Under the pieces are notes generated by a model. That model had not been told where the DNA came from. It was given only the letters and a program-made list of their open reading frames with translations, and made no database searches. Shown one piece after another: positions 14,914 through 36,472 of a stretch of DNA of 64,000 bases. Source of the DNA: Planctomycetota bacterium (GTDB taxonomy: Bacteria; Planctomycetota; Phycisphaerae; Phycisphaerales; Phycisphaeraceae); NCBI GenBank assembly GCA_016350165.1, contig CP066225.1:4712001-4776000 (forward strand), in the 5' to 3' direction. Position 1 is the stretch's first letter; each line of letters opens with the position of its first letter. The position numbers were made by a program, and so were the translations under genes.

Positions 14914-16500
14914 TTATGAGATGACCGTTCCAATAGAGTCTGCAATTTCTTGAGCTGCGGCATCGGGGTCGCCTTCCCATTTATGATATCGTTTGTCGCT
15001 GAGTAGAGGCCATTTGTCTAATATTGTCTGTATTTCATATTTATTCCCAGCCATGATTGGAATAATTTTACCATTGCCATCAGATGCAATGTGCCTTGCA
15101 AGGACTGCTTGTAACTCATGTTTAGGCCACGATTTTTCTACTGAATGTGAAGAGAGAATCGCAATGATATGTTTTGATTGGCCTAGAGCATGATTGATTT
15201 TTTCAATGAATGAGTCCCCTATTTTGATGTACTTTTCATCAATGAAAACATTCAGGCCGATCTTTGTGAGATGCTCATGTAACGGAGTTGCAATCTCGTT
15301 CTTATCTTCACTGGCATGGATAATGAAAAGGTCAAATTTCTGTCTCATCTTTACGGCTTCCTTAATAAATGTAGGTGGTTCGGGATCAATTTTTGACATT
15401 GATAGGCAGAAATCTAAATAACACACGTCAGTTTTCCCACGAACCATTCTTAGAAATGAAAGTTTACCGTAGAGAACATTAAGGAAGTATTCCGCATGGT
15501 TGTTAACTTCACAGTTTTTGTAGGGTGCGCGATATTTCTCAATATACTCAATGCCAGCCAGCTCCGGTCCAAATTTTCGGATCGCATGGATCATTGCTCG
15601 TATTTGGCGAATAAATTTGCGATTGACATTTGTGAACTCATTGACAGTAAGTCCAGTGACTTCCTGTCTCTGACGTTTTGAAAAGAGCCGATTCTTATTT
15701 GTGTTTATCGTGAATCCAGATTTTGTAATTGCGTGCACGAGTAAAGGGCCAAGCGTGATGTTCTCAGGTTCTAAGCCAGATTTATATTGGCCTTCCTTGT
15801 GTTGTTCTTGATCATCTCCTGAGTATTTATCCAAGATTGCAATATGTTTGGGAAATGTACAATATCTGTATGAAAATGTGATATCGTCAGCGTATCGGCT
15901 GTACTTCAAATTGTATTTATTGGCTATGTTGATTAGCTTTCGATCTAGTTTGAAAGCGATCATATTGGAGATGACAGGTGATGTGCATGCCCCTTGTGGA
16001 AGTACGCCATCTTTAGTCACAAGGTGGGCGAGGGTAGTCGATGCATTTTCACCTGCCCCGAAGCTCATGAATAATCCCCGAACACGTCCGAAATGGATGG
16101 ACGTGTAAAAGTCTTCGAGATCAATATTTAAAACCCACCTAGACTGTTTTTTGTGTATGTTGGCGCCGCCGACCACTGATCTTTTATTTACAAAGCCGAA
16201 AACGCAATCTTTGGGTTGATATACGGCGTCTAGGATTGTTTTAAATTTCTGCTGAAGAATGGAAATATTTTTTGGAGGCGCAGAAATCTGGCGTGGTTTG
16301 CCATTTTTTTTGGGTATTTCAAAATCTTTATAACCTGAGTGCCCTGGGTACTTATAAAGCCATCTTTTTAAATGGCCAGGGTGAACTTCGAGCAATTCAG
16401 CCACATCACCAAATGTATGGGCGGCTTTGAATAGCTTGACCGAATCTTCAGTTGGCCGCACTAATTCTGTTGTTGGCTTAGCTATTTTCGGATATCGCAT
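14914..16500 (-). CDS. Retron reverse transcriptase fused to a C-terminal TIR domain
   Basis: The 528-aa fusion has an RT at about residues 60-320 with motif A NIDLEDFYTSI (D127), QG motif GVLPQGACTSP (169-170), catalytic YADD (203-206), and the retron hallmarks AxxH (113-116, in place of NAxxH) and VTG (281-283). A TIR domain follows at about 388-525 with FDLFIIHASEDK, VFIDEKYIKIGDSF and SWPKHELQAVL, where E462 is the expected catalytic glutamate for NAD cleavage. In known retron defence systems the RT and its msDNA guard a toxic effector; here the effector is fused. The ATG at 16500 lies 3 nt after the ncRNA a2 arm, whose AGGGG can serve as the Shine-Dalgarno. The first ~60 residues include an HTH-like segment. 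RT-TIR fusions are known among retron systems. Confidence 0.92.
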   Translation of the reverse strand: MRYPKIAKPTTELVRPTEDSVKLFKAAHTFGDVAELLEVHPGHLKRWLYKYPGHSGYKDFEIPKKNGKPRQISAPPKNISILQQKFKTILDAVYQPKDCVFGFVNKRSVVGGANIHKKQSRWVLNIDLEDFYTSIHFGRVRGLFMSFGAGENASTTLAHLVTKDGVLPQGACTSPVISNMIAFKLDRKLINIANKYNLKYSRYADDITFSYRYCTFPKHIAILDKYSGDDQEQHKEGQYKSGLEPENITLGPLLVHAITKSGFTINTNKNRLFSKRQRQEVTGLTVNEFTNVNRKFIRQIRAMIHAIRKFGPELAGIEYIEKYRAPYKNCEVNNHAEYFLNVLYGKLSFLRMVRGKTDVCYLDFCLSMSKIDPEPPTFIKEAVKMRQKFDLFIIHASEDKNEIATPLHEHLTKIGLNVFIDEKYIKIGDSFIEKINHALGQSKHIIAILSSHSVEKSWPKHELQAVLARHIASDGNGKIIPIMAGNKYEIQTILDKWPLLSDKRYHKWEGDPDAAAQEIADSIGTVIS

Positions 16501-20912: not shown

Positions 20913-22469
20913 ATGAGAGTATTTATTCCGGAGTATCGGGATCGTAAAACGGGTGAGCAGAAGCCAAGCTCAAAATATCACATCAGCTTCAAAGATCATC
21001 ATGGAGTGATGCGGCGGGTGGTGGCATATCCGACTTCAGTTGGTGCAGCACGTTCACAAGCACTAGGTGCAAAGATTGAATCGCTAGTAAGCAGTCGTGG
21101 AACAAATGAAGCTTTGACGCTAGATATGCAGCGGTGGATTGAAACGATGCATCCCGACTTACTCAAGAAGTTAGCAGGTTGGGATATCGTTGATAGCCGT
21201 AAGATGGCAGCATTGAAGCCAGCGGAAGAGCATGTTGACGATTGGCAGATTGGGCTTGAAGCCAAGGGCAATACAAAGCATCGCGTAGATGTAGCAGTTT
21301 CACGGGCTAGGCTAATACTTGAAGAAATGTGCATCGATTACTTGACGGATATTCAGGCAAGTGATGTGCAGCGGTTCATGAACGATCAGCGTAAAGCAGG
21401 TAAAGCACCTCGTACAATCAACGGCTACCTGCAAGCGTTCAAGCAGTTCTGCAAGTGGGCAGTGCAGGAAGGGCGGCTATCACAGTCACCTGTCGAGCAT
21501 GTACAAGCATTGTATCTTAATGGCGATATACGCAGGAAACGCAGTGTTTTTAGCATTGATGAGCTTAATCAACTTATCGAGCATACCGCGCAATCTGAGG
21601 ATCGTTACAAGATTAGAGGTTTTGAGCGTGCGATGCTTTATCGTTTCGCAGTTGAGACGGGCTATCGTGCGAATGAAATTCGAGCGTTAAAAGTTCGCGA
21701 CTTTGAATTGTGCGAAGATATGCCTGTTGTGAAGCTAGCAGGTAAGCACACAAAGAACGGTGATGATGCTCTGTTACCTTTGCGTGCTGATACAGCTGAG
21801 TGCTTAGCTGAGCTATTTGAGGGCAAGTCACCCAGTGAAGCAGCCTTCAATCTCCCAAGTAAGTACAACATGGCCAAGATGCTTCGAGCTGATGCGGAAG
21901 CAGCAGGGCTTGAGACGGAAGGCGAGGATGGCAGCCGTGTAGACTTCCATTCACTGCGTCACCAGTCAGCCACGTTGCACAGTATGTCGGGAACGAATCT
22001 CAAGGTAGCTCAAAAGCTCATGCGACACAGCGATCCGAAGCTAACGATGGGCGTGTATACGCACACCAATCAGCAGGCGATGCGTGAAGCAGTCGAGAGT
22101 TTGCCAATCATGGAGATGGCAGGTTCGAGAGTGTATGCAGGTGAAGAAAATTGCGGGAACGGGTTGGGTGATGATTCATCCGATCCTGCTTTCATCTTCG
22201 ATCCAGAGGAAAATGCTTGCGCCGTGCTTGCGCGAGAGCATGGAAAAACACGGACAAACACGGACAAAGTCCTAACAAACGAAAATGTAAATATTGACTG
22301 TGAGATTGACGCTAAAGATATGGATTATAAGGAGTTAGCGTCTGAAATAGTAGGTAAGATTAAAAGCCACCCATCGGATTCGAACCGACGACCTATGCTT
22401 TACGAAAGCAATTTTTCATCTTTCCACAATCTGCGAATATGGCCTAAAAATGGCTTTTGGCGTCGCTAA
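20913..22469 (+). CDS. Tyrosine integrase of element A, with tRNA-derived C-terminal tail
   Basis: This 518-aa site-specific recombinase has a SAM-like core-binding domain (about 105-190) and a catalytic domain with R252 (GYRANEIRAL), H346-x-x-R349 (HSLRHQS), H372 and nucleophile Y382 (MGVYTHTN). It would integrate element A at tRNA-Thr(CGT). Residues about 484-499 (SHPSDSNRRPMLYES) are the translation of att copy 2, and the last ~19 residues are read from element B DNA. The original tail was therefore probably replaced when element B integrated. The catalytic domain ends well before this point, so activity need not be affected. Confidence 0.9.
   Translation: MRVFIPEYRDRKTGEQKPSSKYHISFKDHHGVMRRVVAYPTSVGAARSQALGAKIESLVSSRGTNEALTLDMQRWIETMHPDLLKKLAGWDIVDSRKMAALKPAEEHVDDWQIGLEAKGNTKHRVDVAVSRARLILEEMCIDYLTDIQASDVQRFMNDQRKAGKAPRTINGYLQAFKQFCKWAVQEGRLSQSPVEHVQALYLNGDIRRKRSVFSIDELNQLIEHTAQSEDRYKIRGFERAMLYRFAVETGYRANEIRALKVRDFELCEDMPVVKLAGKHTKNGDDALLPLRADTAECLAELFEGKSPSEAAFNLPSKYNMAKMLRADAEAAGLETEGEDGSRVDFHSLRHQSATLHSMSGTNLKVAQKLMRHSDPKLTMGVYTHTNQQAMREAVESLPIMEMAGSRVYAGEENCGNGLGDDSSDPAFIFDPEENACAVLAREHGKTRTNTDKVLTNENVNIDCEIDAKDMDYKELASEIVGKIKSHPSDSNRRPMLYESNFSSFHNLRIWPKNGFWRR
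22362..22410. repeat. att copy 2: junction of elements A and B
   Basis: This copy matches tRNA-Thr(CGT) from its 3' end into the 5' arm of the anticodon stem (identity through TACGAAAGCA), 4 nt further than copy 1. It lies inside the 3' end of the element A integrase gene. It serves as right end of A and left end of B. Confidence 0.9.
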
Positions 22470-22499
22470 ATCCTTTGTTTTAGAGGTATTAGGGGCTTG

Positions 22500-22578
22500 A
22501 TACCGCATCAACACCGCATCAATACCGCATTGACAAATTGCCCCACTTTATGCCCCAACTGCCCCAATTTTAGCCCCA
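22500..22578. repeat. Tandem 11-bp repeats and TGCCCCA repeats next to att copy 2
   Basis: Three head-to-tail 11-bp units of consensus AYACCGCATCA occupy 22500-22532. Copies of (T/A)GCCCCA follow at 22539, 22551, 22560 and 22572. TTGCCCC is repeated at the other end of element B (35711 and 35722) and TGGGGCA inverted at 33574 and 33586. Helical-turn spacing next to both att copies fits integrase arm-type or excisionase binding sites. Confidence 0.5.
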
Positions 22579-22689
22579 CTTTTTAGGTTGCAGTTTTCGG
22601 CACGCGAGTTACCATCTCGATCGCTGTTGGATTTATTACTTAACGCGACAAACGGCAGACAATTACCCATTCGCCAACAGTAAATTTGC

Positions 22690-23155
22690 TTGCCCATATG
22701 AACGATGATTTAAAGCCCTGTATCCCGTATATGGGGGCGGGCGAAAGCCAAGCCCGATTGAACTGTAACGTTGCAGCAAGCAGAACGTAACAATGTAATA
22801 CCTAAGCCCATGCTGAGGCATGGCGAAAAAGCGTGGATATCCGGTCGCGAAAAGAAATAGCTGGATAGCCCTTGGTACTTGGGCACTCGATCACTTATAC
22901 AACTGCAACGTTTAAGTGATTCGTGGAGTTAGTGTGTTTTGGTGACGACGCACTGGCACACTAACGTTGAAGCGACTGGCAGGGGTTAATCATTCTACGA
23001 TGCCAGCACCCAATTATGTAGAACGGATGAACGCGATAGCCGAAAGCTATACGAGAAACATCTGACCGGCTCCACTAGGGGTCGGTCTGCCCGCTTTGCC
23101 TCTTGCTTCCGAGAAACAGGGAATGATCGGCGTGTAAGGTATACTTGTTTTTTTT
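22690..23155 (+). ncRNA. Candidate large structured RNA of unknown family
   Basis: A gene-free stretch contains many successive hairpins. They include CCCATAT/ATATGGG (22692 with 22728), GGC-GAAA-GCC inside GGGC/GCCC (GNRA tetraloop, near 22740), CCATGC/GCATGG, ATCACTTA/TAAGTGAT, a perfect GTTAGTGTG/CACACTAAC (22928 with 22957), CTGGCA/TGCCAG, ATAGC/GCTAT, and a 10-bp GACCGGCTCC/GGGGTCGGTC stem whose G-U pairs only work as + strand RNA. A run of eight T at about 23147-23154 could end it. Two variants of the element B palindrome lie inside it. I could not match it to tmRNA, RNase P, or group I or II introns by eye. Confidence 0.5.
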
Positions 23156-23735
23156 AAACCCCCGAGCAATATTTCGCTAGTATCTAAATGGCTGCAACGT
23201 TGCAGGGATTTATTGGTAATAGTCATGTACTCCTTACTCTGTTGATATAAAAATCTTTAATCCATGGCTCCTTTCTGTGCTAAATGATTGATGTTGGTGG
23301 AATTTTAGGTTCTGTTTGACTGCTCGCCTACTTTGGATTTTGGTTGCAATTTCGGCTTTCGTCATACCAGTCTAGCGGCATAAACACGACGATCGCAAAA
23401 TAGATCTAAGCGGTTTTAAGGCGATTTCGGAAACATAAAACACAACCTAATATTACTGGCCTGAAAGTATCAGGTATATAGCGTATCGATTGACTGATGT
23501 GTAAATGATTCAGCTATATCAACTGATTTCATGTGCTCATTCTTGAATATGCAGTTAGGATTTAATTGGAGTTTTTGCATGGATATGCTGTCTTGAATTC
23601 TGATGATGGTCATGTACTTACGCCATCTGTCTCCTAAGTCAATGTGCCTTATCATTGACTTTGCCCCGCAATATAGTTCAAATGTTTCTTACACTATTGC
23701 ATTTGCTAAAACGTTTCATGACGAGGGGCAATATT
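23156..23735. other. Gene-free leader region before the SNF2 helicase
   Basis: No supported gene is present. One exact CTGCAACGTTGCAG is at 23192-23205. The helicase frame is open back to 23655 but without start support. The promoter of the three-gene cassette should lie here; I see no clear -35/-10 pair. Confidence 0.4.
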
Positions 23736-26642
23736 ATGTCGGCACCAACAGAAGCTATCGGCTTAAAGCAAATTACGAATTATCAAGCCTGCTACTATGC
23801 GCATGAATTGACCCGCATGGGTACTTTAGGTGAACTGGATAGACTTAGCGCAACTCTTTTTGATTCAAAGGTAGATCTTAATCCACACCAAGTAGATGCT
23901 GCTTTATTTGCATTATCTAATCCGCTGCAAAAAGGGGTCATACTTGCGGATGAAGTTGGATTGGGGAAAACAATCGAGGCAGGATTAGTTCTTTGTCAAA
24001 AGTGGGCGGAACGTAAAAGAAAACTTTGTGTGATTGCACCCGCGCATATTCGAAAGCAGTGGCAAGCGGAATTACTTGAAAAATTCAATTTACCGTCCAT
24101 CGTTATGGATCGAAAAGTTTGGAATTCTCTACGCAAAGAAGGATATCTAAATCCATTCGATTGTGGCAAAATCGTGGTGATATCTTACCCATTTGCCGCA
24201 CGAATGAAGGATGAATTAAGAGCGATTCCTTTCGATTTAGTGGTACTTGACGAAGCGCATAAATTACGTAATGCATATCAGCCAAGCAGGACATCGGGGC
24301 AAGCAATTCGTTGGGCATTTGAATTAAGAGAAAAATTGTTATTAAGTGCGACTCCTTTGCAGAATAGTTTGATGGAATTGTATGGTTTGGGTTGGGTAAT
24401 AGATGACCATGTTTTTGGTGATAGAAGCTCGTTTCAAACTCGGTATACACGTGCCGGCGGAGATCTTCTTGGGCTTAGAAAGCGAATGCAGCAGTTTTGC
24501 AAAAGAACATTAAGGCAAGACTGTGCCTATGTTAATTACACGAAACGTCAAGCGCTTACCCACCCGTTTAACCAAACTATAGAAGAGAAGAAATTATATG
24601 ATGATGTAACATCGTTTATGTTACGTGAAGATAGTTACGCATTCCCTCAACGGCAGCGTCAACTTATAGAGATGATTTTATTCAAAAGCCTTGCATCTTC
24701 ACCAATGGCTTTAGCCAGTACACTCAGACGGATGAGGCAAAGATTAATTGATATACGCGATCATCTGAATCAAAAAGAAGATGCCTACATTGATCAATTG
24801 CTAGAAGATGATGATGTGGATCTCGAAAACCTTGGTGAGTATCTAGATGAATTTGATAGTCAACAAAATACTCATGCAAAGGTGGTTGATGGAACGTTAT
24901 TGGCTGATGAATTAGCTGATCTTGAATCGTTAATTGAAAGAGCCGATCAGATTACTTGTGATAGCAAAGCAAAGGCATTGCTTGGAGCGTTGAAGACAGG
25001 GTTTTCTAGGCTTGGGCAACTCGGAGCGGCTAAGAAAGTATTGATTTTTACTGAAAGTCTGAAAACGCAAGCATTTCTTGCTGATTATCTTGAAGCCAAC
25101 GGCTACGCAGGAAAGGTCGTTACGTTTAGTGGTAGGAATGCGCACCCAAGAGCCAAAGACGCCTACGAGCGTTTTGTGTCAAAGCACGCCGGTACGGATA
25201 AATTAACCGGATCGAAAGCTATAGACATACGTTCAGCTTTAATTGAAGCGTTTCGTGATACAGGTGAAATTATGCTAGCCACGGAAGCTGCTGCAGAGGG
25301 TGTCAATCTACAATTTTGTTCGTTTGTCATCAACTACGATTTGCCATGGAATCCTCAACGCGTCGAGCAACGAATTGGTCGATGCCATCGCTACGGTCAG
25401 AAATATGATGTTGTTGTTTTAAACTTCCTGTCACGCGGCAACCTTGCAGATCAACGCGTTCAAGATCTTTTGCAGCAAAAATTTAGCTTGTTTGATGGCT
25501 TATTTGGTGCAAGTGATGACGTACTTGGAGCAATTGAGGGAGGTATAGATTTTGAAAAACGCGTTCTTGAGATTATGAAGAATTGTCGTAAGGATGATGA
25601 GATTGAATTAGCCTTCAATAAACTTCAAGAAGACTTGGAAACCGTAATTTCTGGCAAGATGGATAAAGCCCGTCAGCAATTGCTTGAGCATTTTGATACA
25701 GATGTTCATGAACGATTGAAGGTAGATAGCGAAAATGCTCAGATTGCATTAGATCGAGTAGGTCGGCGATTCTGGGAACTAGCCAAATGGGGGCTCGCAG
25801 ATCAGGCACGGTTTAACCATGAAACGTTTCATCTTTACCTGCCAGTGTCTCCTGCTAACGGAATTCCAGATGGCAGCTACCGTCTCATATCAGCCGCACG
25901 AAGTGAAGATGATTACGCTGAAACAGAAGCTCATCTATTGCGTCTCTCATGCCCATTAGGCCAGTGGGTACTTGGTAACGCCAAAGAACAAGTTTTGCCT
26001 GCTGCAACGTTGCAGTTCGACCTCACCAATCATGACCGTAAGGTGAGTATGCTTGAGTCTTATATGGAGCAGTCAGGTTGGATGCGTGTTGAAAAATTGA
26101 CATTGGACAGCGACACGCGCGAAGAATACCTATTACTTACTGCAATGACAGATCGCGGCGACAACCTCGATCAAGAGCAAATTCAGCACCTGCTCGATAT
26201 CTCAGCCAAGCAATCCGGCCAATGTGAACCTGCTAAGGAAACGCTTGAACGCCTTGATGCCGATGCGGGCAGGCTACGAAGCGCCACCATTTCCAAGGCC
26301 ACACAGGCCGGTAACGGTCGATTTAAGCAAGCCATTAAGCAGATGGATCAGTGGGCAGATGATAAAGTGGAAGCCGCTGAAGTTGCTCTTAGTACGATCA
26401 AATTGGACTTACGAGCAGTTAGACGCCGTCTTGATCTTGCTGAAACAGCCCAAGCACAGGGAGATGCACTGAAACTTGTTCACAGTCTTGAGAAAAAGCA
26501 GAAGCAAGCCCGCCAAAAAATGTATGATATTGAGGATGAAGTGGAGGAGCAGCGCGAGCAGCTCATCCAGCAGTTGCGTAAACGTTGCGAGCAGCACCAG
26601 ACGCAGCAAGAATTATTTACTATTCGATTTGAAATTGTTTGA
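23736..26642 (+). CDS. SNF2-family DEAD/DEAH helicase of the element B cassette
   Basis: This ~968-aa ATP-dependent translocase starts at the ATG at 23736, because GAGGGG lies 7 nt upstream; the frame is open further to 23655. The SNF2 motifs are clear: motif I ILADEVGLGKTIEAGL (P-loop about 75-79), II LDEAHKLRN (172-175), III LLLSATPLQN, V LATEAAAEGVNLQ and VI QRIGRCHRYGQ. A long, partly coiled C-terminal region follows. It most resembles the HepA/DrmD-like SNF2 proteins that accompany methyltransferases in defence islands. It is 11 nt upstream of the methyltransferase gene. It carries one palindrome copy in its coding sequence (26002), read as AATLQ. Confidence 0.85.
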   Translation: MSAPTEAIGLKQITNYQACYYAHELTRMGTLGELDRLSATLFDSKVDLNPHQVDAALFALSNPLQKGVILADEVGLGKTIEAGLVLCQKWAERKRKLCVIAPAHIRKQWQAELLEKFNLPSIVMDRKVWNSLRKEGYLNPFDCGKIVVISYPFAARMKDELRAIPFDLVVLDEAHKLRNAYQPSRTSGQAIRWAFELREKLLLSATPLQNSLMELYGLGWVIDDHVFGDRSSFQTRYTRAGGDLLGLRKRMQQFCKRTLRQDCAYVNYTKRQALTHPFNQTIEEKKLYDDVTSFMLREDSYAFPQRQRQLIEMILFKSLASSPMALASTLRRMRQRLIDIRDHLNQKEDAYIDQLLEDDDVDLENLGEYLDEFDSQQNTHAKVVDGTLLADELADLESLIERADQITCDSKAKALLGALKTGFSRLGQLGAAKKVLIFTESLKTQAFLADYLEANGYAGKVVTFSGRNAHPRAKDAYERFVSKHAGTDKLTGSKAIDIRSALIEAFRDTGEIMLATEAAAEGVNLQFCSFVINYDLPWNPQRVEQRIGRCHRYGQKYDVVVLNFLSRGNLADQRVQDLLQQKFSLFDGLFGASDDVLGAIEGGIDFEKRVLEIMKNCRKDDEIELAFNKLQEDLETVISGKMDKARQQLLEHFDTDVHERLKVDSENAQIALDRVGRRFWELAKWGLADQARFNHETFHLYLPVSPANGIPDGSYRLISAARSEDDYAETEAHLLRLSCPLGQWVLGNAKEQVLPAATLQFDLTNHDRKVSMLESYMEQSGWMRVEKLTLDSDTREEYLLLTAMTDRGDNLDQEQIQHLLDISAKQSGQCEPAKETLERLDADAGRLRSATISKATQAGNGRFKQAIKQMDQWADDKVEAAEVALSTIKLDLRAVRRRLDLAETAQAQGDALKLVHSLEKKQKQARQKMYDIEDEVEEQREQLIQQLRKRCEQHQTQQELFTIRFEIV

Positions 26643-26653
26643 GCAATTAAGCC

Positions 26654-29600
26654 ATGACAGCACTAGATACCCCCGCAGCACCCACTGTTAGTGATATCAA
26701 ATTCAATGCCCTCAAATCAAAATTCCGGGAGCTATTCGAATTAGATAAATCTGACCTCGATTTTGGCATCTACCGCATCATGGCTGCTAAAAACGATGAA
26801 GTCACCGAATTTCTCGATAAGCAGCTCAAAGACGTTGTGCAGCAGATCCTTGCTGATCATGGCGCCGATGCTGCTGATAAATTGCAAGCTCAGATCGACG
26901 AAGCCCGTAAAGCCGCTTCAGCCGCCGGCTTCAACCCAGATGAATCTCCCAAAGTCATCGAGCTTGAAGCCCTTAAATCCTCAGCAGGTGGCAAAGGCGC
27001 AGCCGAGCTCGAAGCTGACATCTACAACCACCTCTTCTCATTCTTCTCGCGTTATTACGACGAAGGCGACTTCATCTCCAAACGTCGCTACAAGGGCGAT
27101 ACTTACGCCATCCCCTATTCAGGCGAAGAAGTCACCCTACATTGGGCAAACAAAGATCAGTACTACATCAAATCCGGTGAATGGCACAAAGACTATTGTT
27201 TCAAAGTTGCAGGCAACAAAACGGTTCACTTCAAACTCGTTGATGCCACACAGGAAACCAATAACAACAAGGAGAGCGACAATGAAAAACGTCGTTACAT
27301 CCTTGATACAACCAACCCCGTAGAAGTCGTCGGCAACAAACTGATCTTGCACTTCCAATTCCGTGCTCCAACAGAAGACGAAAAGAAAACCGTCAAAGAA
27401 TCCGAAGCAACCCGCACCTTCGGCGGTGATTTCGACAAAAACAAATCAAAAGCGAACCCAGCTCAGAAAAAAGCCGGCGATGAACGCGAGCAATTCTGTG
27501 CCGATGCTGAGAAACGAGCTTTCCAAGCCATGCCTGCAGACTGGGTGAAACTGCTCGCCAAAGTCGATGATAGCTCCAAAACCGATAGCAAGCCCGAACG
27601 TACACTCCTCGGCAAGCAGCTTGATCATTACACCGCCAAAAACTCATTCGATTACTTTATCCATAAAGACCTCTCAGGCTTCCTCACGCGTGAACTCGAT
27701 TTCTATATCAAGAGCGAAGTTGTCCGCCTAGATGATCTTGAACACCTTGAGCCAACTCACCTTCAACGTGTGCAAGGCAAGGTTAAAGCCATTCGCAACG
27801 TTGCAGCCCGAATCATTGAATTCCTCGGCTCACTCGAAAACTTCCAGAAAAAACTATGGCTTAAAAAGAAATTCGTACTCAATACGAATTGGCTTGTCAC
27901 CATCGACCGTCTAAGCGATGAATTGCGTACTGAAGTTGCAGATAACAAAGATCAATGGCAGGCGTGGGAGGATCTTGGTTTCAAACCACAAGAAGTCAAG
28001 CAAGATGTAGGGTTGTATCAAGATGCAGCTTGGGGTAGCCGGGAATACATCGATGCAAATGATAAGTTAGTCGTCGATACGCGGTTTTTTGACGGCTTGT
28101 TTAAGACCAAGCTACTTGCGAGTGAAGAGGTGTTGGCGGGTAATGTAACGTTAGATGACGCGACCAGTGGGGTATTGATTAACTCAGAGAACTTTCAGGC
28201 ATTGAATTTACTGCAGGATCGGTATAAAGAGCAGGTTAAATGTGTTTATATTGACCCTCCATATAATACTGACGCATCGGCAATTATCTATAAAAATGAA
28301 TATAAGAATTCCTCATGGATAAGTCTTATTGAAGATCGACTTTTTCTTGCACAGCCATTATTGGAAGATAGTGGAATTCTGTCCTTTGCAATTGATGATG
28401 AAGAAGTAGCCGAAGCAAGAGCTTTGCTGAAAACGATATTCGCAAAAGAAATTGGAATTGCGGTCGTCCGATCCAACCCACAGAGCCGAAAAACGAAGGG
28501 TAAGTTTTCACCAGTTCATGAATACGCATTGTTTTATGGTAATTCTAGTGGGGCCATTCCAGGCAGTTTGGACGTTTCCGAAAAAAAAGCAGCGAGATAC
28601 CCACATACCGATGAGAATGGTAGATATGCATGGATGAATTTTATTCGAACAGGCAATAATGATAAGAGAAGTGATCGACCCAAATTATTTTACCCTATTT
28701 GGGTAGACCAAAATGATAAAATTAGAATACCTCAGATGCATTGGGACTTACAAAGAAATGAATATGTAATAGATGAGAAAACTCGTGAATTTGAGGAAAT
28801 CGTTTATCCAATATCAGATAATAATGGCAATCTAATTGAGAAAAATTGGCATCGTGGGCATATTCGAGTTGAAAGTGATCCAAGTGAATATCGTGTAAGA
28901 CGAAATGCAAATGGGAAAATATCCATTGACTTCAAAACACGTATGGATGCTGCAGCTATGCCAACGACGTGGTGGGATAACAATGATTACGCCTCTGCGA
29001 ATTACGGTGCTTCGGAATTAAAAGATTTGTTTGGAGAGAAACCATTTGATTTTCCCAAAGCTCAAAAACTGGTGCAAGACTGTATTCAGGCTTCATTGAA
29101 ATCGAGCGGTCCAGCTTGTTTGATGGATTTTTTTGCAGGATCAGCGACGACAGGGCATGCCGCGATAAACTTAAACCGAGATCGTAACAACGAGGATATC
29201 AAATTTGTCTTAGTTGAAATGGGAACGTATTTTAGCTCAGTGGTTAAACCACGTATCACTAAGGTGCTGTACTCTACTGAATGGAAAAATGGCAAAGCGG
29301 TTAAGCACGGCGAAGGCACATCAGCTCTCGTCAAATATTTCAGTCTTGAATCTTATGACGATGCGATGACCAACTTGCCAACACCAACCGACGGCATCTT
29401 TAATCAAGCCGATACAAAAACAAAAGAAGCACTAATTACCTACGCGCTCGATATCGAACTCGGTCCGCATATGCTCAACCTCAAGGCGTTCGAAAATCCT
29501 TGGGATTACAAGATCAAAGCCCAGCTCGCCGGCAGCGATGAAATCAAAGAGGAATCCGTCGATCTAATTGAAACGTTTAATTATCTGCTCGGCTTAAAAG

Positions 29601-30004
29601 TTCACGCCTACGGTCCTATCGAAAGCTACGCTGCTGAGTTTGAAAAGACCGATCATCCAGACGATAAAGGCAAACTAAAAGTCGCCAAACGCCTCAAGAA
29701 AGCACAGGATGGCCCATACATCTTCCAGCGTATCGAAGGTGAACTACTCGACGGCACAAAGGTACTCGTTGTATGGCGTAAGCTGACCGGCGATGCTGAA
29801 AAAGACGCAGCAGTTCTCGATCAGTGGATGGATAAGCACAGCGAAAAAACTTCTGACAGAAGCCCATACCGCGAATTCAAATACACCTACCTTAACGGTC
29901 CTGTCACACTCCCGCAGCCAACACAAGATATTCGCTCAGTCTACCCCATCGAAGAAACCTTCAAGGATCGCATGTTCGCAGGCACGGAGGGGCAAAATGG
30001 CTAA
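26654..30004 (+). CDS. Large site-specific DNA methyltransferase (beta-class adenine, type III Mod-like)
   Basis: This 1116-aa protein would methylate DNA (N6-adenine most likely) and mark self in the cassette. The catalytic motif IV YIDPPYNTD is at about residues 532-540 and the AdoMet motif I MDFFAGSATTGHAA at about 824-837; the order IV before I is that of beta-class enzymes such as type III Mod. A ~500-residue N-terminal extension opens with LDFGIYRIMAAKNDEVTEFL, which is typical of the large methyltransferases paired with SNF2 and Res-like helicases. A C-terminal ~200-residue domain may help target recognition. The gene starts 11 nt after the helicase stop and overlaps the next gene by 8 nt, so all three form one operon. 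Confidence 0.88.
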   Translation: MTALDTPAAPTVSDIKFNALKSKFRELFELDKSDLDFGIYRIMAAKNDEVTEFLDKQLKDVVQQILADHGADAADKLQAQIDEARKAASAAGFNPDESPKVIELEALKSSAGGKGAAELEADIYNHLFSFFSRYYDEGDFISKRRYKGDTYAIPYSGEEVTLHWANKDQYYIKSGEWHKDYCFKVAGNKTVHFKLVDATQETNNNKESDNEKRRYILDTTNPVEVVGNKLILHFQFRAPTEDEKKTVKESEATRTFGGDFDKNKSKANPAQKKAGDEREQFCADAEKRAFQAMPADWVKLLAKVDDSSKTDSKPERTLLGKQLDHYTAKNSFDYFIHKDLSGFLTRELDFYIKSEVVRLDDLEHLEPTHLQRVQGKVKAIRNVAARIIEFLGSLENFQKKLWLKKKFVLNTNWLVTIDRLSDELRTEVADNKDQWQAWEDLGFKPQEVKQDVGLYQDAAWGSREYIDANDKLVVDTRFFDGLFKTKLLASEEVLAGNVTLDDATSGVLINSENFQALNLLQDRYKEQVKCVYIDPPYNTDASAIIYKNEYKNSSWISLIEDRLFLAQPLLEDSGILSFAIDDEEVAEARALLKTIFAKEIGIAVVRSNPQSRKTKGKFSPVHEYALFYGNSSGAIPGSLDVSEKKAARYPHTDENGRYAWMNFIRTGNNDKRSDRPKLFYPIWVDQNDKIRIPQMHWDLQRNEYVIDEKTREFEEIVYPISDNNGNLIEKNWHRGHIRVESDPSEYRVRRNANGKISIDFKTRMDAAAMPTTWWDNNDYASANYGASELKDLFGEKPFDFPKAQKLVQDCIQASLKSSGPACLMDFFAGSATTGHAAINLNRDRNNEDIKFVLVEMGTYFSSVVKPRITKVLYSTEWKNGKAVKHGEGTSALVKYFSLESYDDAMTNLPTPTDGIFNQADTKTKEALITYALDIELGPHMLNLKAFENPWDYKIKAQLAGSDEIKEESVDLIETFNYLLGLKVHAYGPIESYAAEFEKTDHPDDKGKLKVAKRLKKAQDGPYIFQRIEGELLDGTKVLVVWRKLTGDAEKDAAVLDQWMDKHSEKTSDRSPYREFKYTYLNGPVTLPQPTQDIRSVYPIEETFKDRMFAGTEGQNG

Positions 30005-33000
30005 GGAAAAAGCAACCAAGAAGAAGGCTGTAAAGAAAACCAGTAGGAAGAAACAGAAACCAGACTTTCACAAACAAACCGTTCTTTTCCAATGGGCATT
30101 GGCAAAGTTTGGCGTTAAAGATCTTGACGACTTCAAGCAACGTTTCCTGATCACCCCCGATACACCCGAGGGGATGAATCTACAGACCGGCAATCATCAT
30201 TTTTATGAAGCCATAGCAAACGCGCTGCCAACAGTTGCCGATGATAATGTCCTGCAAGTTGATCGCCTCACTGAATACGAACAGAATATTCAGCAGCACA
30301 CCGCCAAGATGAACGAAGCACGTGCTCATCATGGTCAGCCGATGATCACATGGAAGTATCACCAATACTTATCGCTGCTTTTTACTGAAATGTATCTTGA
30401 TGCATTTTTTGATGATACTGCAGTTTTGCGTGATCAGATCAATGGGCAGATCAAAACGCACAATCAAAACAATCACAGTGTCGATGAAGTTATACCCTTT
30501 CACGAAGCTGAAGAACCCAAAGATCAACTTGCCCGTTTAGCATTCTGGTGTGCGACCGGTAGCGGAAAAACGCTTTTGATGCACATACACATTATGCAGT
30601 TTAGGTACTATCACAGGCTTGCATACAAAGGCGGTCAATGGCCTAAATTAGATCAAATTATTTTAGTGACCCCTAATGATGGTTTGACTAAGCAGCACGC
30701 TCAGGAGTTTGAATACTCAGGTTTTGATGTAGCTACAATTGACGACCGTGGAGAAGCCGGCGCTCTATGGGCCTCACACGCTAAACGCGATATCTTAATT
30801 CTCGATATTCACAAGTTCCGTGAAGAGCAAGGTAAAACAACCGTTGCGACCGAAGGCTTTGAAGGCTGTAACCTTGTACTTGTAGATGAGGGGCATAGAG
30901 GGGCAGGGCGAGGCGAAGAAGGTAAATGGTTATTCCGACGCGATCAACTCGCAAAAAATGGATTCTGTATTGAGTACTCAGCTACTTTCAAAGAGGCCGT
31001 ACAAAGTGACGAGGTGATGCGCAACCGCTATGCAAAATGCATCTTGTTCGATTATGCCTACCGTAGCTTCTACCGTGATGGATATGGGAAAGATTTTTCA
31101 ATCCTGAATCTGGAAGACGACAACAAAAAACAACGCTACCTTACTGTTGCAACGTTGCTTTTTTATGAACAGATGAAAGTTTGGGCGGATAGCGGCCAAA
31201 AAATCAAGCCATTCTTGCTCGACAAGCCTTTGTGGGTATTCGTAGGACACACGGTTAGTGGCGGTGCATATGTTTCCGACGTTACAGAAGTATTACTGTT
31301 CTACAAGGAATTTCTTGCCAATCCACAAGACACAAAAGAAATGATTGCTGACCTATTGAAGCAAGGCTACATGGACAGCAAAGGCCGAGACTTACTCGGC
31401 ACACGTTTAAAGCATTTAAAGCGGTCAGGCGATCAAGATAAAATTGCTATAGATATCTACAACGAAATTTTGCGAGATGTTTTTCATGCTCCGGACGGAG
31501 GCAACCTTTGCGTGCAGCTTATCAAAGCCGCGGAAGGTGAACTTGCAATTAAGGTTGGAGAAAACGAGCCGTTTGGTGTTGTTAACGTCGGCGATCCAGA
31601 AGGCGTAGCGAAGCAATGCGAAAAACACGGAATACTACGTCTAGAAGATGATTTGTACCGAGATTCATTATTTCATGGCATTAACAATGACGATAGCCCT
31701 ATCAACTTGCTTGTTGGTTCACGTAAATTTACCGAAGGTTGGAACTCTTGGCGTGTATCCTCTATTGGCTTAATGCATATGGGGCAGAATGAGGGTACAC
31801 AGATTATTCAGCTATTTGGCCGTGGCGTTCGATTACGTGGATATAAAATGTGTTTGCGTCGTTCAAGTGTGCTGCCGAAAAAACCGAAAACGCCAAACAA
31901 CATACGACAGATTGAAACGTTGCAGGTATTCGGCGTTAAAGCCAATTACATGAAAAAATTCCGCGATTGGATTTACGAAGAGATTCCTGAAGCTCAAGAA
32001 CGTGAGTATTGGCATTTACCTGTCGTCAAAAAACTTCCAGATACGAAGCTGAGAACACTTGCGATTAAAGATACGATTGACGGCGTGAAAGTGGAACGCG
32101 GTCAAGCGTTCAGAAAATTAGGTCCTATTGTTCGTGTACGTTTGCCCGGAGCATGTGTCGAAGACGCTTGGCTGCGAGATAACCCAGCACGTTTGAATTG
32201 GCTGCCACGTATTCACGGCATACAAGGCCATGATAAAAAAATCAGCCAAGGCATTGGCTCAGTAAACCAAATGCCCAAGCAATACTTTCAATCAATCCAT
32301 AGGCTCTTGTTAGATTATGATGAGTTGCTTTTTGGATTAGAGCAATTCAAGGCAACGAGAAGCCTTGATCGGTTGCATGCGACAAAAGATGATCTCGTTT
32401 CATTGTTTGAGTCAACTACATGGTATGTTTTGTATGCCGCGGAAGATGATATGAGTCCACGTAAGATCGAAAATCGATCACAGTGGCAACGCATGGCTCA
32501 GCAGTTGCTTAATAACTATGCCGAAAGGTTGTATCGTTTTGAAAAGGGATGCTGGGAAGCACCGTATATTGAAGTTGTAGAATTGTCAGAAGATGACCCC
32601 AATATAATCTCTGGTTACGATCTTGAGGCAACTTCTTTAGATCCTGATGAAGCGAATGAACTTGGTGCTCAAATTAAAGATTTAGAAAGATTGTTGGGAG
32701 AAGATAGCCAATCAGCCTTGAAGAATTGGATGTGTGGCATCGGTGGTAAGTGGGGGCAAGCTCACTTTAACAATCACCTTTATCAGCCACTGCTTTACAA
32801 AGGCAAGCAATCTAAAATTCATATTTCTCCAATTGCTTTAGATGAGAATGAAAAAGAGTTTGTAGCCGATTTGGCAAAATGGTGTGATTCAAATGCAGAG
32901 CATGAAGTGTTTTTGTTGAGAAACCAAGCGGTTACAGGCTTGGGATTCTTTCAAGCCTCAAACTTTTACCCAGATTTCTTGTTGTGGATTAACGTATCAA

Positions 33001-33311
33001 ACGTGCAGCATCTAGTGTTTGTTGATCCGAAAGGTTTGCATCATATCAGTGTGAATGACCCGAAAGTTTTGTTTGCAACCCAGCAAATACCTGAACTGCA
33101 ATCCACTATCAGTAAACAAAATAAAAACCTACACCTTCATGCATTTTTGGTTACTCATACTGATCAGAATATAATTAAGTGGTCGATGGACTCGCAAAAA
33201 TTAACCAAAATGCAGATGCAAGAGTTAAATGTACTCTTCCAGAATGAAGACAAAGATATTTATATACAGCAATTGATGAGCAAAGTGATGCAGGTAGCTT
33301 GTAGTAACTAA
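29997..33311 (+). CDS. Type III Res-like DEAD/DEAH helicase with C-terminal PD-(D/E)xK-like nuclease
   Basis: The ~1104-aa protein starts at the ATG at 29997, with GGAGGGG 4-5 nt upstream, overlapping the methyltransferase stop by 8 nt. An upstream open frame to 29793 is only the shadow of that overlap. A Lys-rich tail (MAKEKATKKKAVKKTSRKK) is followed by P-loop ATGSGKT (186-192), DEGH (297-300), and GSRKFTEGWNSWRVSSIG then IIQLFGRGVRLRG as motifs V-VI. The C-terminus has FYPDFLLWI (D993) and VFVDPKGL (D1010-x-K1012), a nuclease-like core with Asp where Glu is usual. It would translocate on and cut unmodified DNA with the methyltransferase as its self marker. Confidence 0.85.
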   Translation: MAKEKATKKKAVKKTSRKKQKPDFHKQTVLFQWALAKFGVKDLDDFKQRFLITPDTPEGMNLQTGNHHFYEAIANALPTVADDNVLQVDRLTEYEQNIQQHTAKMNEARAHHGQPMITWKYHQYLSLLFTEMYLDAFFDDTAVLRDQINGQIKTHNQNNHSVDEVIPFHEAEEPKDQLARLAFWCATGSGKTLLMHIHIMQFRYYHRLAYKGGQWPKLDQIILVTPNDGLTKQHAQEFEYSGFDVATIDDRGEAGALWASHAKRDILILDIHKFREEQGKTTVATEGFEGCNLVLVDEGHRGAGRGEEGKWLFRRDQLAKNGFCIEYSATFKEAVQSDEVMRNRYAKCILFDYAYRSFYRDGYGKDFSILNLEDDNKKQRYLTVATLLFYEQMKVWADSGQKIKPFLLDKPLWVFVGHTVSGGAYVSDVTEVLLFYKEFLANPQDTKEMIADLLKQGYMDSKGRDLLGTRLKHLKRSGDQDKIAIDIYNEILRDVFHAPDGGNLCVQLIKAAEGELAIKVGENEPFGVVNVGDPEGVAKQCEKHGILRLEDDLYRDSLFHGINNDDSPINLLVGSRKFTEGWNSWRVSSIGLMHMGQNEGTQIIQLFGRGVRLRGYKMCLRRSSVLPKKPKTPNNIRQIETLQVFGVKANYMKKFRDWIYEEIPEAQEREYWHLPVVKKLPDTKLRTLAIKDTIDGVKVERGQAFRKLGPIVRVRLPGACVEDAWLRDNPARLNWLPRIHGIQGHDKKISQGIGSVNQMPKQYFQSIHRLLLDYDELLFGLEQFKATRSLDRLHATKDDLVSLFESTTWYVLYAAEDDMSPRKIENRSQWQRMAQQLLNNYAERLYRFEKGCWEAPYIEVVELSEDDPNIISGYDLEATSLDPDEANELGAQIKDLERLLGEDSQSALKNWMCGIGGKWGQAHFNNHLYQPLLYKGKQSKIHISPIALDENEKEFVADLAKWCDSNAEHEVFLLRNQAVTGLGFFQASNFYPDFLLWINVSNVQHLVFVDPKGLHHISVNDPKVLFATQQIPELQSTISKQNKNLHLHAFLVTHTDQNIIKWSMDSQKLTKMQMQELNVLFQNEDKDIYIQQLMSKVMQVACSN

Positions 33312-33333
33312 TAGGAATGCTACTTTTTTTATG

Positions 33334-34448
33334 CTGCAACGTTGCAGCTCAAGCCCGATTAAAATGCCATGCGTATTCACAAGCGGGTATATACTAGAAC
33401 GCACGAACGAGAACTCCCCCCGTGGGGGTTCTTTTCTTAATACGCGCACTTATAGCATTGAAGCGTGCCGTTTAAATCAATGGTATAAGGCAAATATATA
33501 CCTGTGGTCAGTACGACCAATGCCCTAGCAAATCATCATCGAACCGTTGATATATAAGCACTTAGATATAAGTTGGGGCAGTATTTGGGGCAGTTTGTAG
33601 CTGCAACGTTGCAGTTAAAGCAAGAGGTGGTTACTAGCCTGCAACGTTGCAGGTCGGTATTGCTAACAAATATCTATTATATCCAACGGTGATTCATTCA
33701 CGTTTTGTCGCCTGTCCTGCAACGTTGCAGCTACTGACTAGGAAGTGAGAACAGTGAGATTGTTTAAGATGACCCATCAAAACTAGAACGTCATACACAA
33801 ACTCACCGCCCGGCCTACTTTTTTTCTTTCTACTTCAACACCGACGCTGTTATATCGAAAGTTTTATGGATGCCCTGCAACGTAGCAGAGGAAAGTTTGA
33901 TTGCAAAATCAACGCTTTAATTGGAGGGGGGCTAGGGCTAGGGCAAGGGCGGAGAAAGAACAAGCAGAAGGTCAGAAGGTATAAGTTAAAACTACTTCCA
34001 TGCTTCAAAAACAAAAATTACAGCAACGCTGAAGAGCCAGCAAAAGTTATGCTCTGCAACGTTGCAGGAAATATCTCACTGTACCAGACTAAAAAAATTC
34101 TTTTAAGAATAGCAAGTTAGCTTTCATTACGATTGTCACATTATAAAATCACACCCGAAGATTTTATGTTATATGCGATCACGGAGGCATATCATGGCTG
34201 ATGATTTTCATACTTTTCAGACACGGGCGTATCTGAATTGCCAAAGCAAATTGGATATTCTCGCAAAGAGACTTAATGCAAATTCAGAAAGCGAGATTGA
34301 AGCTGATGAAGTTCTTTGTTGGGCATTGGATCAAGCATTAAAAATGACAGATCCGTTTCCTAGGAATCATGCTTGTGCTGATTTGGATAATGAGCAACTC
34401 ATGGATGAATTTGAAGTGCTCGAATGTAATCTCGCTGCAACGTTGCAG
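33334..34448. repeat. Cluster of CTGCAACGTTGCAG palindromes
   Basis: Exact 14-bp palindromes occur at 33334, 33601, 33639, 33717, 34054 and 34435, and a one-mismatch copy at 33875. Two further exact copies are at 23192 and 26002, a one-mismatch copy at 22763, and shorter cores elsewhere in element B. The 33,312-34,193 stretch has no supported gene; it holds these sites, a terminator and the TGGGGCA repeats. Binding sites for an element-encoded dimeric protein, or a partition or origin region, are possible. Confidence 0.85.
33410..33438 (+). terminator. Intrinsic terminator after the helicase-methyltransferase-nuclease operon
   Basis: A stem of CCCCC/GGGGG extended by GAA/TTC (two bulged bases), with loop CGT, is followed by TTCTTTTCTT. 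It lies about 100 nt after the Res-like gene. Confidence 0.7.
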
Positions 34449-34559
34449 GTTGTGAATGAACATGGGGTCGATGAGGCTAGACGCGAAGTGACAGGTATTC
34501 AGGCTGAGCTCGATCAACTCAAAGCAGAAGCAAAGGACAGGGGGCTGCAAGTTGACTGA
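34194..34559 (+). CDS. Small helical protein preceding the element B integrase
   Basis: This 121-aa protein is of unknown function. GGAGG lies 6 nt before the ATG at 34194, a good start. It is acidic and largely helical, with a C-terminal coiled-coil-like end (DEARREVTGIQAELDQLKAE). The integrase TTG start lies inside its 3' end (8-nt overlap), so the two are co-translated. It could be a recombination directionality factor or a regulator, but no HTH is obvious. It contains one exact palindrome copy at 34435, encoding AATLQ. Confidence 0.6.
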   Translation: MADDFHTFQTRAYLNCQSKLDILAKRLNANSESEIEADEVLCWALDQALKMTDPFPRNHACADLDNEQLMDEFEVLECNLAATLQVVNEHGVDEARREVTGIQAELDQLKAEAKDRGLQVD

Positions 34560-35694
34560 GATTAAGTTAGGTAAAAATGGCGATTATTGGCAAGCTGTTT
34601 GGTACGACTCAAAAAACAAACGAAAGAGAAAGAACATTGGTAGAGTTGGAAAGCTAACCAAGACTCAGGCCAAAGCTAAAATCGTAAGGATGCAGAAAAA
34701 ATTTGCGATCACGCCGGCGATAGCTGATGCTGGCAAAGCCCCAACTCTTAAGGCATGGGAAGAACGCTATTTTAGTATTCGTACAGACTTGGCGGAAAGT
34801 ACTCGCAAAATTCAGAAGATTGTCTTCAAACAACTGATGGATGAGTTTGGCGAAGATACCCGTATGGATCGTGTATCAGCCGATGCCGCGATGGAATGGG
34901 TCGCAAATATTGAAGGCTCTGAGAATTGGAGAAGAAACGTTGCAGCTAAGTGTAAGACTTTTTGGGTTTGGGCGATAAAGGCCAAACGCGTCTTCGACAG
35001 TCCGTTTGAAGCCGTCTCAACGTCTCCTGTGGAGATCGAAGCTGATTGGTACTTTGTTACTGATCAAGACATGGAAAGGATGCTGGGTGCTTGTACGACG
35101 GATCGCTGGAGATGCTACATAGCATTGTGTCGTTGGGCAGGGTTACGTAGTGAAGAGGCTCGAACAGTCACTTGGAGAGACGTCGATTGGGATGCTCATA
35201 CTATCATGGTCGCCCCTAAAGACGGGAAAGTGACAACAAAGAAAAGGCGACGAGTTGTGCCTGTCGTACCCAAGCTCTACGAAATGCTTCTCAGTTGTTT
35301 TGAACGTTCAGATGGCTCTGCACGTATAGTCGATCTAGGAGACAATAACCATAACAGGGATATGAAGGCTCTTATCAAGCGAGCCGGCGTGAAATCATAC
35401 AACAAACCATTTCATACATTGCGTAAGAACTGCGAATCTGAGTGGCTAGAGAGATACCCGACAATGGACGTATGCCAATGGATGGGGCATGCTCCAGCAG
35501 TCGCTATGAAGCACTACAAGAAATCTACAGCTCAACTCATGCAGCAAGTGACGGAGCAGGTCGATAGTCGAGAAGCGGAGGCTATGGAATTGGCTCGGCT
35601 TATGCTTGAGTTTGATAATGAAACGATGCAGGAAGCGAAAGAATTTATCCACAGATTGGCCGAAATTATTGAAGAGAAAAAGGCAGGCTCCTGA
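34552..35694 (+). CDS. Tyrosine integrase of element B
   Basis: This 380-aa tyrosine recombinase starts with TTG at 34552, after GGGG, overlapping the previous gene. The catalytic residues are R199 (WAGLRSEEAR), H288-x-x-R291 (FHTLRKN), H313 (WMGHAPA) and Y322 (MKHYKKS). An N-terminal arm-binding-like region is rich in Lys and Arg (WYDSKNKRKRKNIGRVGKL), followed by a SAM-like domain. It ends about 100 nt from the tRNA-Thr(CGT) att site, the normal place for the enzyme that integrated there. It is only distantly similar to the element A integrase, so the two elements used one site independently. Confidence 0.9.
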   Translation: MTEIKLGKNGDYWQAVWYDSKNKRKRKNIGRVGKLTKTQAKAKIVRMQKKFAITPAIADAGKAPTLKAWEERYFSIRTDLAESTRKIQKIVFKQLMDEFGEDTRMDRVSADAAMEWVANIEGSENWRRNVAAKCKTFWVWAIKAKRVFDSPFEAVSTSPVEIEADWYFVTDQDMERMLGACTTDRWRCYIALCRWAGLRSEEARTVTWRDVDWDAHTIMVAPKDGKVTTKKRRRVVPVVPKLYEMLLSCFERSDGSARIVDLGDNNHNRDMKALIKRAGVKSYNKPFHTLRKNCESEWLERYPTMDVCQWMGHAPAVAMKHYKKSTAQLMQQVTEQVDSREAEAMELARLMLEFDNETMQEAKEFIHRLAEIIEEKKAGS

Positions 35695-35748
35695 TTTTTT
35701 TTGGACTCAATTGCCCCGAAATTGCCCCACTTTGGTGTTTGAATTAAT

Positions 35749-35787
35749 AAAGGGTTAGAGCGTGAGGCTCTAACCCTTTTGTTTTTA
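35749..35787. terminator. Strong hairpin terminator after the integrase
   Basis: AAAGGGTTAGAGC pairs perfectly with GCTCTAACCCTTT (13 bp) around loop GTGAG, followed by TTGTTTTT. The A-run on the left side means it could also work leftward after the tRNA. Confidence 0.85.
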
Positions 35788-35797
35788 GTGTTTTATG

Positions 35798-35845
35798 AAA
35801 GCCACCCATCGGATTCGAACCGACGACCTATGCTTTACGAAAGCA
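35798..35845. repeat. att copy 3: right end of element B inside tRNA-Thr(CGT)
   Basis: The part of the intact tRNA gene that is repeated at copies 1 and 2. The crossover probably lies in the anticodon loop, where the stem arms TGCT and AGCA give local symmetry. Confidence 0.88.
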
Positions 35846-35872
35846 TTGCTCTACCAGCTGAGCTAGGGTGGC
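35800..35872 (-). tRNA. tRNA-Thr(CGT), integration target
   Basis: A complete cloverleaf lies on the minus strand: acceptor GCCACCC/GGGTGGC, D-arm GCTC/GAGC, anticodon stem ATGCT/AGCAT with loop TTCGTAA (anticodon CGT), and a TTCGAAT T-loop. CCA is not encoded. Its 3' half is carried by element B, so the gene stays intact after integration. Confidence 0.95.
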
Positions 35873-36472
35873 AACCGCTGTCTAATTCAGAGTTTATGTA
35901 AAAAACTCGAATTCTGGCAATGAACAATCACTCATCACCAGAGCAGCAAGAATCGATTTTACGCAAGATACTTACGCTTGCAAATCATCTTCTAATCCAC
36001 AGAGCCTTTATAACCCACTCTAAACTACCACAACCACAGGGTTCACAGATTTGTAGCCAAGTTTATCTTGTACTCTTTTCTCATAATATTATAGATTTTG
36101 CCAAATTATCTTCAGATAGCTCCTCCAGTTCACCCTGTCCTTTGCCCCAATCTTTTCGCTATGCACGCAAACAATAACCACCTACACAAAAAAGATACAC
36201 TTGACTTAAATATTCACGCCGATTCTTCATGACTGAAACAATTAACATCAACTCACCTAGCCAATCTGTAATTCGAAACCATCTCCCCGTTCATTGCTAC
36301 TCAAAACCCTCATCAAACAACTTAAAAAGCAGTGCTTTACCTCATCTAGCCGATAAATATGCCAGTTCATCCACCCACTTATGCAATCCGCCGCATGTGA
36401 CTACAATAGGTGCGACTAATAGCCACACGATTGTGCTGGATCTGATGACTGCCGACTTTGAAAGGACTTTTC
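35873..36472. other. Gene-free region between tRNA-Thr(CGT) and the M16 peptidase gene
   Basis: Short frames at 35920-36177 and 36229-36501 have no start signals or recognisable features and are pyrimidine-biased on the + strand. AAAGGA just before 36473 is the ribosome-binding site of the next gene. I see no other element. Confidence 0.5.

Follow-up and report, generated by a model that had tools for sequence, protein, structure and literature searches.

A dispersed palindrome concentrated in two genomic islands of a Planctomycetota bacterium as a putative protein-binding site

Element B and its palindromes

The stretch of DNA analyzed here (64,000 nucleotides, hereafter "the window") covers positions 4712001-4776000 of the single contig that constitutes this 5.23-Mb genome. 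It holds two elements in tandem at the same tRNA-Thr site. Element A extends from 13234, where a 44-bp copy of the repeat forms its boundary, to 22363, and its integrase gene runs into the tRNA repeat. The neighboring element B lies between two 48-bp repeats that match each other exactly (Table 1). Apart from a helicase-methyltransferase-nuclease cassette, its only evident genes are those for an integrase and for an orphan protein of 128 aa, which had no relative among 300 other genomes of the order. The helicase homologs begin about 38 codons into the annotated frame, and the true start is probably later than the TTG codon at 23655. In element A, a reverse transcriptase with a TIR-type partner domain (14914-16500, minus strand; best PADLOC match RT-TIR_XII) adjoins a PDC-S36-like protein (13348-14463). 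At the gathering score, Rfam recovered only tRNA and tmRNA in the window and three island stretches, and a permissive scan of element B yielded tRNA and one sub-threshold match.

Table 1 Features of element B (window positions)
Feature	Position	Strand	Context
Element B left end	22363..22410		48-bp direct repeat of tRNA-Thr 3' part, within 3' end of element A integrase gene
Palindrome, 1 mismatch, CTGTAACGTTGCAG	22763..22776		Intergenic
Palindrome, 2 mismatches, CTGCAACGTTTAAG	22903..22916		Intergenic
Exact palindrome	23192..23205		Upstream of helicase gene
SNF2/DrmD-like helicase	23655..26642	+	ORF opens at TTG
Sister palindrome ATGAAACGTTTCAT	25819..25832		In helicase gene (HETFH); gap-free in 4 homologs
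Exact palindrome	26002..26015		In helicase gene (AATLQ)
Type III-like DNA methyltransferase	26654..30004	+	Pfam/PADLOC scans
2-mismatch copy, 10-bp core intact	27793..27806		In methyltransferase gene (RNVAA)
Type III-like Res helicase/nuclease	29793..33311	+	Start overlaps methyltransferase ORF
10-bp core GCAACGTTGC	31149..31158		In Res gene (VATLL)
2-mismatch copy, hybrid half-sites, TGAAACGTTGCA	31912..31925		In Res gene (IETLQ)
Exact palindrome	33334..33347		Directly after Res stop codon
Exact palindrome	33601..33614		Intergenic
Exact palindrome	33639..33652		Intergenic
Exact palindrome	33717..33730		Intergenic
1-mismatch copy	33875..33888		Intergenic, or in 84-aa ORF without family match
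Exact palindrome	34054..34067		Intergenic, or in 84-aa ORF that may hold the 33875 copy
128-aa protein	34173..34559	+	No Pfam or PADLOC match
Exact palindrome	34435..34448		In 128-aa gene (AATLQ)
Tyrosine integrase of element B	34552..35694	+	
Element B right end	35798..35845		Same 48-bp repeat, overlaps tRNA-Thr(CGT) 35800-35872

The perfect 14-bp palindrome CTGCAACGTTGCAG occurs in eight exact copies in the window, every one of them in element B. Two further places carry one mismatch and four carry two (those in Table 1 and 25436), giving 14 places, all within 22763-34448, against 0.26 expected (at most 2 in any of 100 shuffles). Our recount thus bore out the initial annotation, which had held that the recurrence is not due to chance, and reproduced all its coordinates for the exact and one-mismatch copies and for the shorter cores (10-mers GCAACGTTGC at 27795 and 31149). 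The sister palindrome ATGAAACGTTTCAT at 25819 is a member of the same set. Copies are spread across the whole of element B, in genes and between them, and are densest beside the integrase. The central hexamer AACGTT occurs 23 times in 22400-35900 (13.5 kb) versus 19 times in the remaining 50.5 kb of the window; element A has only two (13344 and 14091).

Distribution across the genome and its relatives

The exact 14-mer was found at ten places in the genome, eight in element B and two (497251 and 500245) in another island, hereafter island 2, and nowhere else. The earlier description of the motif as specific to element B therefore holds within the window but not for the genome. The broader palindrome TGMAACGTTKCA occurs at 40 places (1 for the reversed control). 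Element B accounts for 10 of them, island 2 for 22 and a region of giant ORFs for 7, which leaves 1 elsewhere. The 35 places of the 10-mer GCAACGTTGC (8 for the reversed control) are divided among element B (10), island 2 (13), the 996-1070 kb stretch (8) and the rest of the genome (4). A genome-wide count, which the initial annotation had suggested, thus did not reveal a host site equally frequent across the chromosome: the two islands together hold 32 of the 40 copies of TGMAACGTTKCA, and with the giant-ORF region 39 of 40. We conclude that the palindromes are real, non-random and concentrated in two islands of this genome.

Island 2 (497-537 kb), which has a tyrosine integrase of its own, begins at a tRNA-Leu gene; its far end, at 537352, is marked by a 23-bp repeat of that tRNA. 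Thirteen of its 22 copies of TGMAACGTTKCA lie near the two ends (10 at 497.2-501.1 kb and 3 at 537.0-537.2 kb), and the other nine lie in an autotransporter region. A non-coding zone of this island (57-883 of the extracted locus L017) contains long inverted repeats that are CAGAG-rich, 34 nt long and 97% complementary.

These nine copies and the seven at 996-1070 kb make up 16 giant-ORF copies. In the ORFs checked, 10 of the 16 encode ATLQ and one encodes ATFQ; that check also showed the peptide written with other codons in 3 of 13 cases. All 16 are probably coding repeats, and we left them out of the support for a binding-site reading. A tRNA-Ile gene and an integrase that shares 53% identity with the island 2 enzyme lie near the giant ORFs at 985-1085 kb (up to 3453 aa), and this run is possibly a third island.

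HIP1 is a short palindrome that is dense both inside and outside coding sequence and frequent across whole genomes, whereas the palindrome described here gathers in mobile elements and is rare in the chromosome. An excerpt of a study of HIP1 (PMC4390886) gives it as the highly iterated palindrome of cyanobacteria. With 39 of 40 copies of TGMAACGTTKCA in two islands and one giant-ORF region, we rejected a HIP1-like genome-wide palindrome for this genome.

Both islands could nonetheless have come from a donor organism with such a genome-wide palindrome and have no role for it here, as the presence of copies inside and outside genes and their rarity in the recipient chromosome would suggest. If a donor carried about one copy per kb, many stretches with paired copies would be expected from it, yet a search of the species-genome collection for copies 5-35 bp apart returned 48 stretches, with at most two per genome. 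Moreover, none of 50 other genomes of the family has more than five copies of TGMAACGTTKCA. These counts, which leave room for unsampled donors and lower densities, make a donor signature quite unlikely. Across the order, TGCAACGTTGCA is found in 34 of 301 genomes: 28 copies in our genome, four in the next and one or two in the others. The genome with four (G016, same family) carries each at the center of a longer palindrome; three of the four are intergenic and one falls inside an ORF. On its contig C103, the copies at 17945, 27059, 38179 and 48078 (loci L351 and L352) stand about 10 kb apart, with partly similar flanks.

Origin of the copies

We shuffled synonymous codons 500 times in five element B genes and pooled the counts. 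AACGTT occurs 14 times in these genes (shuffles: mean 5.6, maximum 13), palindromes of at least 8 bp nine times (mean 1.27, maximum 5) and palindromes of at least 10 bp six times (mean 0.55, maximum 3). Low P values also came from some control gene sets outside the islands: P = 0.012 for AACGTT between 5 and 12.8 kb of the window, and P = 0.002 for palindromes of 10 bp between 56 and 62 kb. P values of single genes are therefore not a safe guide; the strength lies in the pooled counts, which show an enrichment beyond codon usage.

We compared the in-gene sites with homologs from Klebsiella, Aeromonas and Blastomonas, and for the helicase also from a Salmonella plasmid (helicases 46-49% identical). 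Over the displayed codons, 8 of 11 AACGTT sites align without gaps, including both palindromes of at least 12 bp; of the remaining three, two fall at small gaps and one in an N-terminal extension that the homologs lack. The homologs themselves have little AACGTT: none in four of four helicase genes, 1, 1 and 0 in the methyltransferase genes and 0, 0 and 0 in the Res genes. Both in-gene palindromes of the helicase are gap-free in four homologs and therefore originated by substitution. These alignments show that, wherever a site allowed the test, the copies were made by substitution and not by insertion.

The flanks of most copies are unrelated. When element B was aligned locally to island 2 and to its own sequence, a few similarities beyond the motif emerged, the best of them 24 of 26 bases between 29566-29591 and 499868-499843 of island 2 (E = 9e-4), 24 of 27 between 22760-22786 and 26018-25992 within element B (E = 0.004), and a 28-nt hairpin-like stretch of the CCATGCTGAGGCATGG type, near palindrome copies in both islands (22805-22832 versus 501067-501094, 86%). 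The initial annotation had considered mobile palindromic repeats, copied around the element in the manner of REP or MITE sequences. Identical 14-mers at many places, a few of them with shared flanks (as in the 24/27 match above), are what such copying would leave behind, but the lack of common flanks around most copies and the gap-free alignment of 8 of the 11 in-gene sites led us to reject this candidate, which we regard as largely refuted.

Association with the cassette and the integrases

Copies lie within and around the cassette, and they had been proposed as a self-recognition mark for its helicase, methyltransferase and nuclease. A search with the helicase gave matches in 41 other genomes of 397. 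None of the loci around 13 of its best matches (58-67% identical) contains TGMAACGTTKCA; these loci, chosen by helicase match with a full cassette not presumed in each, have 19 AACGTT in 247.6 kb. Between the ORFs of element B and those of island 2, only the integrases are similar (28% identity), apart from one chance-level hit. Since the 13 helicase loci lack the 12-mer and island 2 carries it without a relative of the cassette, the palindrome is not a mark of the cassette's own, and we consider that proposal highly improbable.

The same two observations weigh on a related explanation, in which AACGTT or GCAACGTTGC is the target of a methyltransferase and the palindromes mark or regulate the islands, much as HIP1 is linked to orphan methyltransferases. 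In keeping with this, the palindromes are symmetric, occur in genes and between them, and are accompanied by an enrichment of AACGTT in element B, which does encode a methyltransferase. That enzyme, however, is type III-like, and type III-like methyltransferases read short asymmetric sites; a target of 12-14 bp would also be unusually long. Methylation of this kind is therefore unlikely.

In both islands the copies crowd most closely toward the integrase end and recur near the opposite one, as might be expected of arm-type sites bound by the integrase or by its directionality factor. Such recombination or excision sites are nevertheless very unlikely here: the copies are many and scattered, also in the cassette genes, and none of 58 loci around relatives of both integrases in other genomes carries the palindrome (best-scoring relatives only; loci of 2.4-4.2 kb, some overlapping). 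On the basis of these short loci, we also rejected the motif as a property of the integrase families. A partition or origin array (parS, iterons), another of the initial proposals, was abandoned, as no ParAB or replication protein is present among the six element B proteins scanned.

Phages that carry the 12-bp core

Viral contigs were scanned with pair patterns, a 16-mer and a 14-mer. The exact 14-mer gave no usable lead, as 92 of 92 loci hold just one exact copy. Among the matches listed, however, TTGCAACGTTGCAA reaches about one copy per kb in at least eight contigs of one phage clade and in the contig of one unrelated phage, whereas most other viral contigs found have one to three copies. 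Membership of the eight contigs in the clade was established by protein similarity (IMGVR 3300046539_000052, 3300048606_000067, 3300012923_000166, 3300021413_000005, 3300049985_000018, 3300037463_000015, 3300022745_000783, with a portal identity of 51-52%, and 3300020020_000634, with a portal identity of 50-52% and 10 copies in 9.3 kb). Measured against the portal protein of one member, those of two others show 60 and 63% identity. The unrelated phage (L325) is a 26-kb contig that shares its sample of origin with one clade member and encodes a polymerase, a primase and a UDG; it has 10 copies in the 12.8 kb analyzed and no protein relative in the clade contigs.

Four long clade members contain 15, 15, 13 and 15 copies of TGMAACGTTKCA. 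We compared six positions, picked because palindromes stood at corresponding places, in these four phages. At five of them the 12-mer lies at the same junction or codon run in all four, with different flanks; at the sixth this is so in three of four, and L345 has the 12-mer inside the next gene. The set of sister sites is thus conserved in the clade at the positions compared, while the flanks have diverged. The phage 14-mers favor gene junctions: 33 of the 56 stand no more than 40 bp from the end of an ORF, versus 8.0 expected, and 16 lie deep inside ORFs. Copies are also spaced more evenly than random in each of the four phages (P = 0.028, 0.016, 0.008 and 0.0002; in L349 the first copy, alone in the left 5 kb, was omitted), a result that is not independent of the junction preference because genes themselves are evenly spaced.

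A preference for junctions would also suit palindromes that act in transcripts as RNA hairpins, in termination, processing or translation control. In the phages it is mainly the center of near-matches that varies, with 10 of 18 mismatches in the 4 central of 14 positions, the would-be loop, and seven of eight folded stretches beat their shuffles (z from -2.2 to -4.1), as any palindrome would. In element B and island 2, by contrast, near-matches keep the center and vary in the arms, the reverse of what a hairpin predicts; copies occur within genes as well, and no U-run comes after the intergenic copies that were inspected. Hairpins are distinctly unlikely as the explanation.

This difference in near-match pattern argues against one common reader for islands and phages. 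The outer base differs as well (C/G in element B versus T/A in the phages), so the shared 12-bp core may be a coincidence. With 2.9 million contigs searched, one 12-bp core may find such a match, although no other 12-mer palindrome reached four copies in 205 viral loci.

The terminase and portal proteins of the phages had no match in INPHARED, and the major capsid protein matched 10 records at 22-26% identity; the L325 primase matched 52, at about 25% identity among the matches listed, mostly Microbacterium and Bacillus phages. The portal protein had no match in 301 genomes of the order, in a search run without a positive control, and a comparison of phage ORFs with the window and island 2 gave one weak match, to the element A primase. 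Pfam recognized no regulator and no methyltransferase among ten proteins of one clade phage and ten of L325. Two other viral contigs show local clusters: three tandem copies of TGCAACGTTGCA with 22-bp spacing, as in operator arrays (L085, 1303-1358), and four copies of GTTGCAACGTTGCAAC confined to the leading 1.4 kb of a GC-rich contig (L262, 124-1394).

Search for the reader protein

The initial annotation had offered, among other options, binding sites for a dimer encoded by the element. We favor its binding-site part, but "element-encoded" is unsupported: Pfam and PADLOC recognized no regulator-type protein or repressor among six element B proteins, and the protein similarity between the islands is limited to their integrases, save for the chance-level hit.

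The core has features of LacI/GalR-family operators. TGAAACGTTTCA fits TGAAWCGWTTCA, the Cra-type consensus of such operators, and TGMAACGTTKCA has the central CG and the fitting arms of that consensus. Among the 48 genome loci with paired TGCAACGTTGCA, a LacI-type HTH gene adjoins the pair in six, which are all six Kribbella loci (the scan used a strict expression over 2-8 kb per locus, so the other 42 are not thereby LacI-free). Because all six Kribbella pairs adjoin such a gene, a LacI-type protein plausibly reads this core elsewhere. Our genome has 15 LacI-family genes, none of them in the islands, and TGNAACGTTNCA was found near none of the 15 (801-901 bp around each). The helix expression matched six of the 15, and none of the six equals the Kribbella helix. 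The only chromosomal TGAAACGTTTCA outside element B, island 2 and the giant-ORF region (3541889) is not near a LacI gene. LacI operators number a few per promoter, whereas the palindromes reach about one per kb, occur in genes too and have no LacI gene beside them in either island; a distant LacI gene may act in trans.

KorB, Noc, SlmA and MatP sites are dispersed operators of plasmids or chromosomes. They resemble our set in being palindromes of 12-14 bp scattered through one replicon or domain, but their sequences differ and no such protein was recognized in element B. Mycobacteriophage stoperators, given as the Cluster A repressor sites in an excerpt of a published study (PMC9283540), are similar in that many copies of one short protein-binding site are spread over a mobile genome. 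Stoperators are asymmetric, however, whereas the exact sites here (CTGCAACGTTGCAG) are perfect palindromes, occur also in genes and come with no repressor that we could find. Literature searches by sequence returned nothing on TGCAACGTTGCA, nor on TGAAACGTTTCA as a palindrome; among the matches listed, those for GTTGCAAC with phage and for dispersed palindromic repeats in phages included no title about this motif.

Discussion

We interpret the palindromes as dispersed, individually arisen putative binding sites for a sequence-specific, probably dimeric DNA-binding protein, a reading to which we assign a probability of roughly 45%. The protein would bind the core TG-M-AACGTT-K-CA and may act across the element, through silencing, a roadblock, gene regulation or DNA organization, in the manner of stoperators or KorB-type operators. 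It is probably encoded outside element B.

A broader proposal is that several unrelated mobile elements (the two chromosomal islands, the phage clade of about 17 kb and the second, unrelated phage, with up to about one tag per kb) share a palindromic tag read by a widespread host factor. Such a factor would, for instance, protect, silence or package the tagged DNA, with the islands mimicking the phage tag or having it in common with the phages. We consider this an unlikely, if broader, possibility.

A dispersed palindrome that gathers in mobile DNA and keeps corresponding positions in diverged phages would imply a protein that reads it. Knowing what this reader is would reveal an element-wide control system of a new kind, or else a tag that lets cells or phages distinguish mobile DNA.
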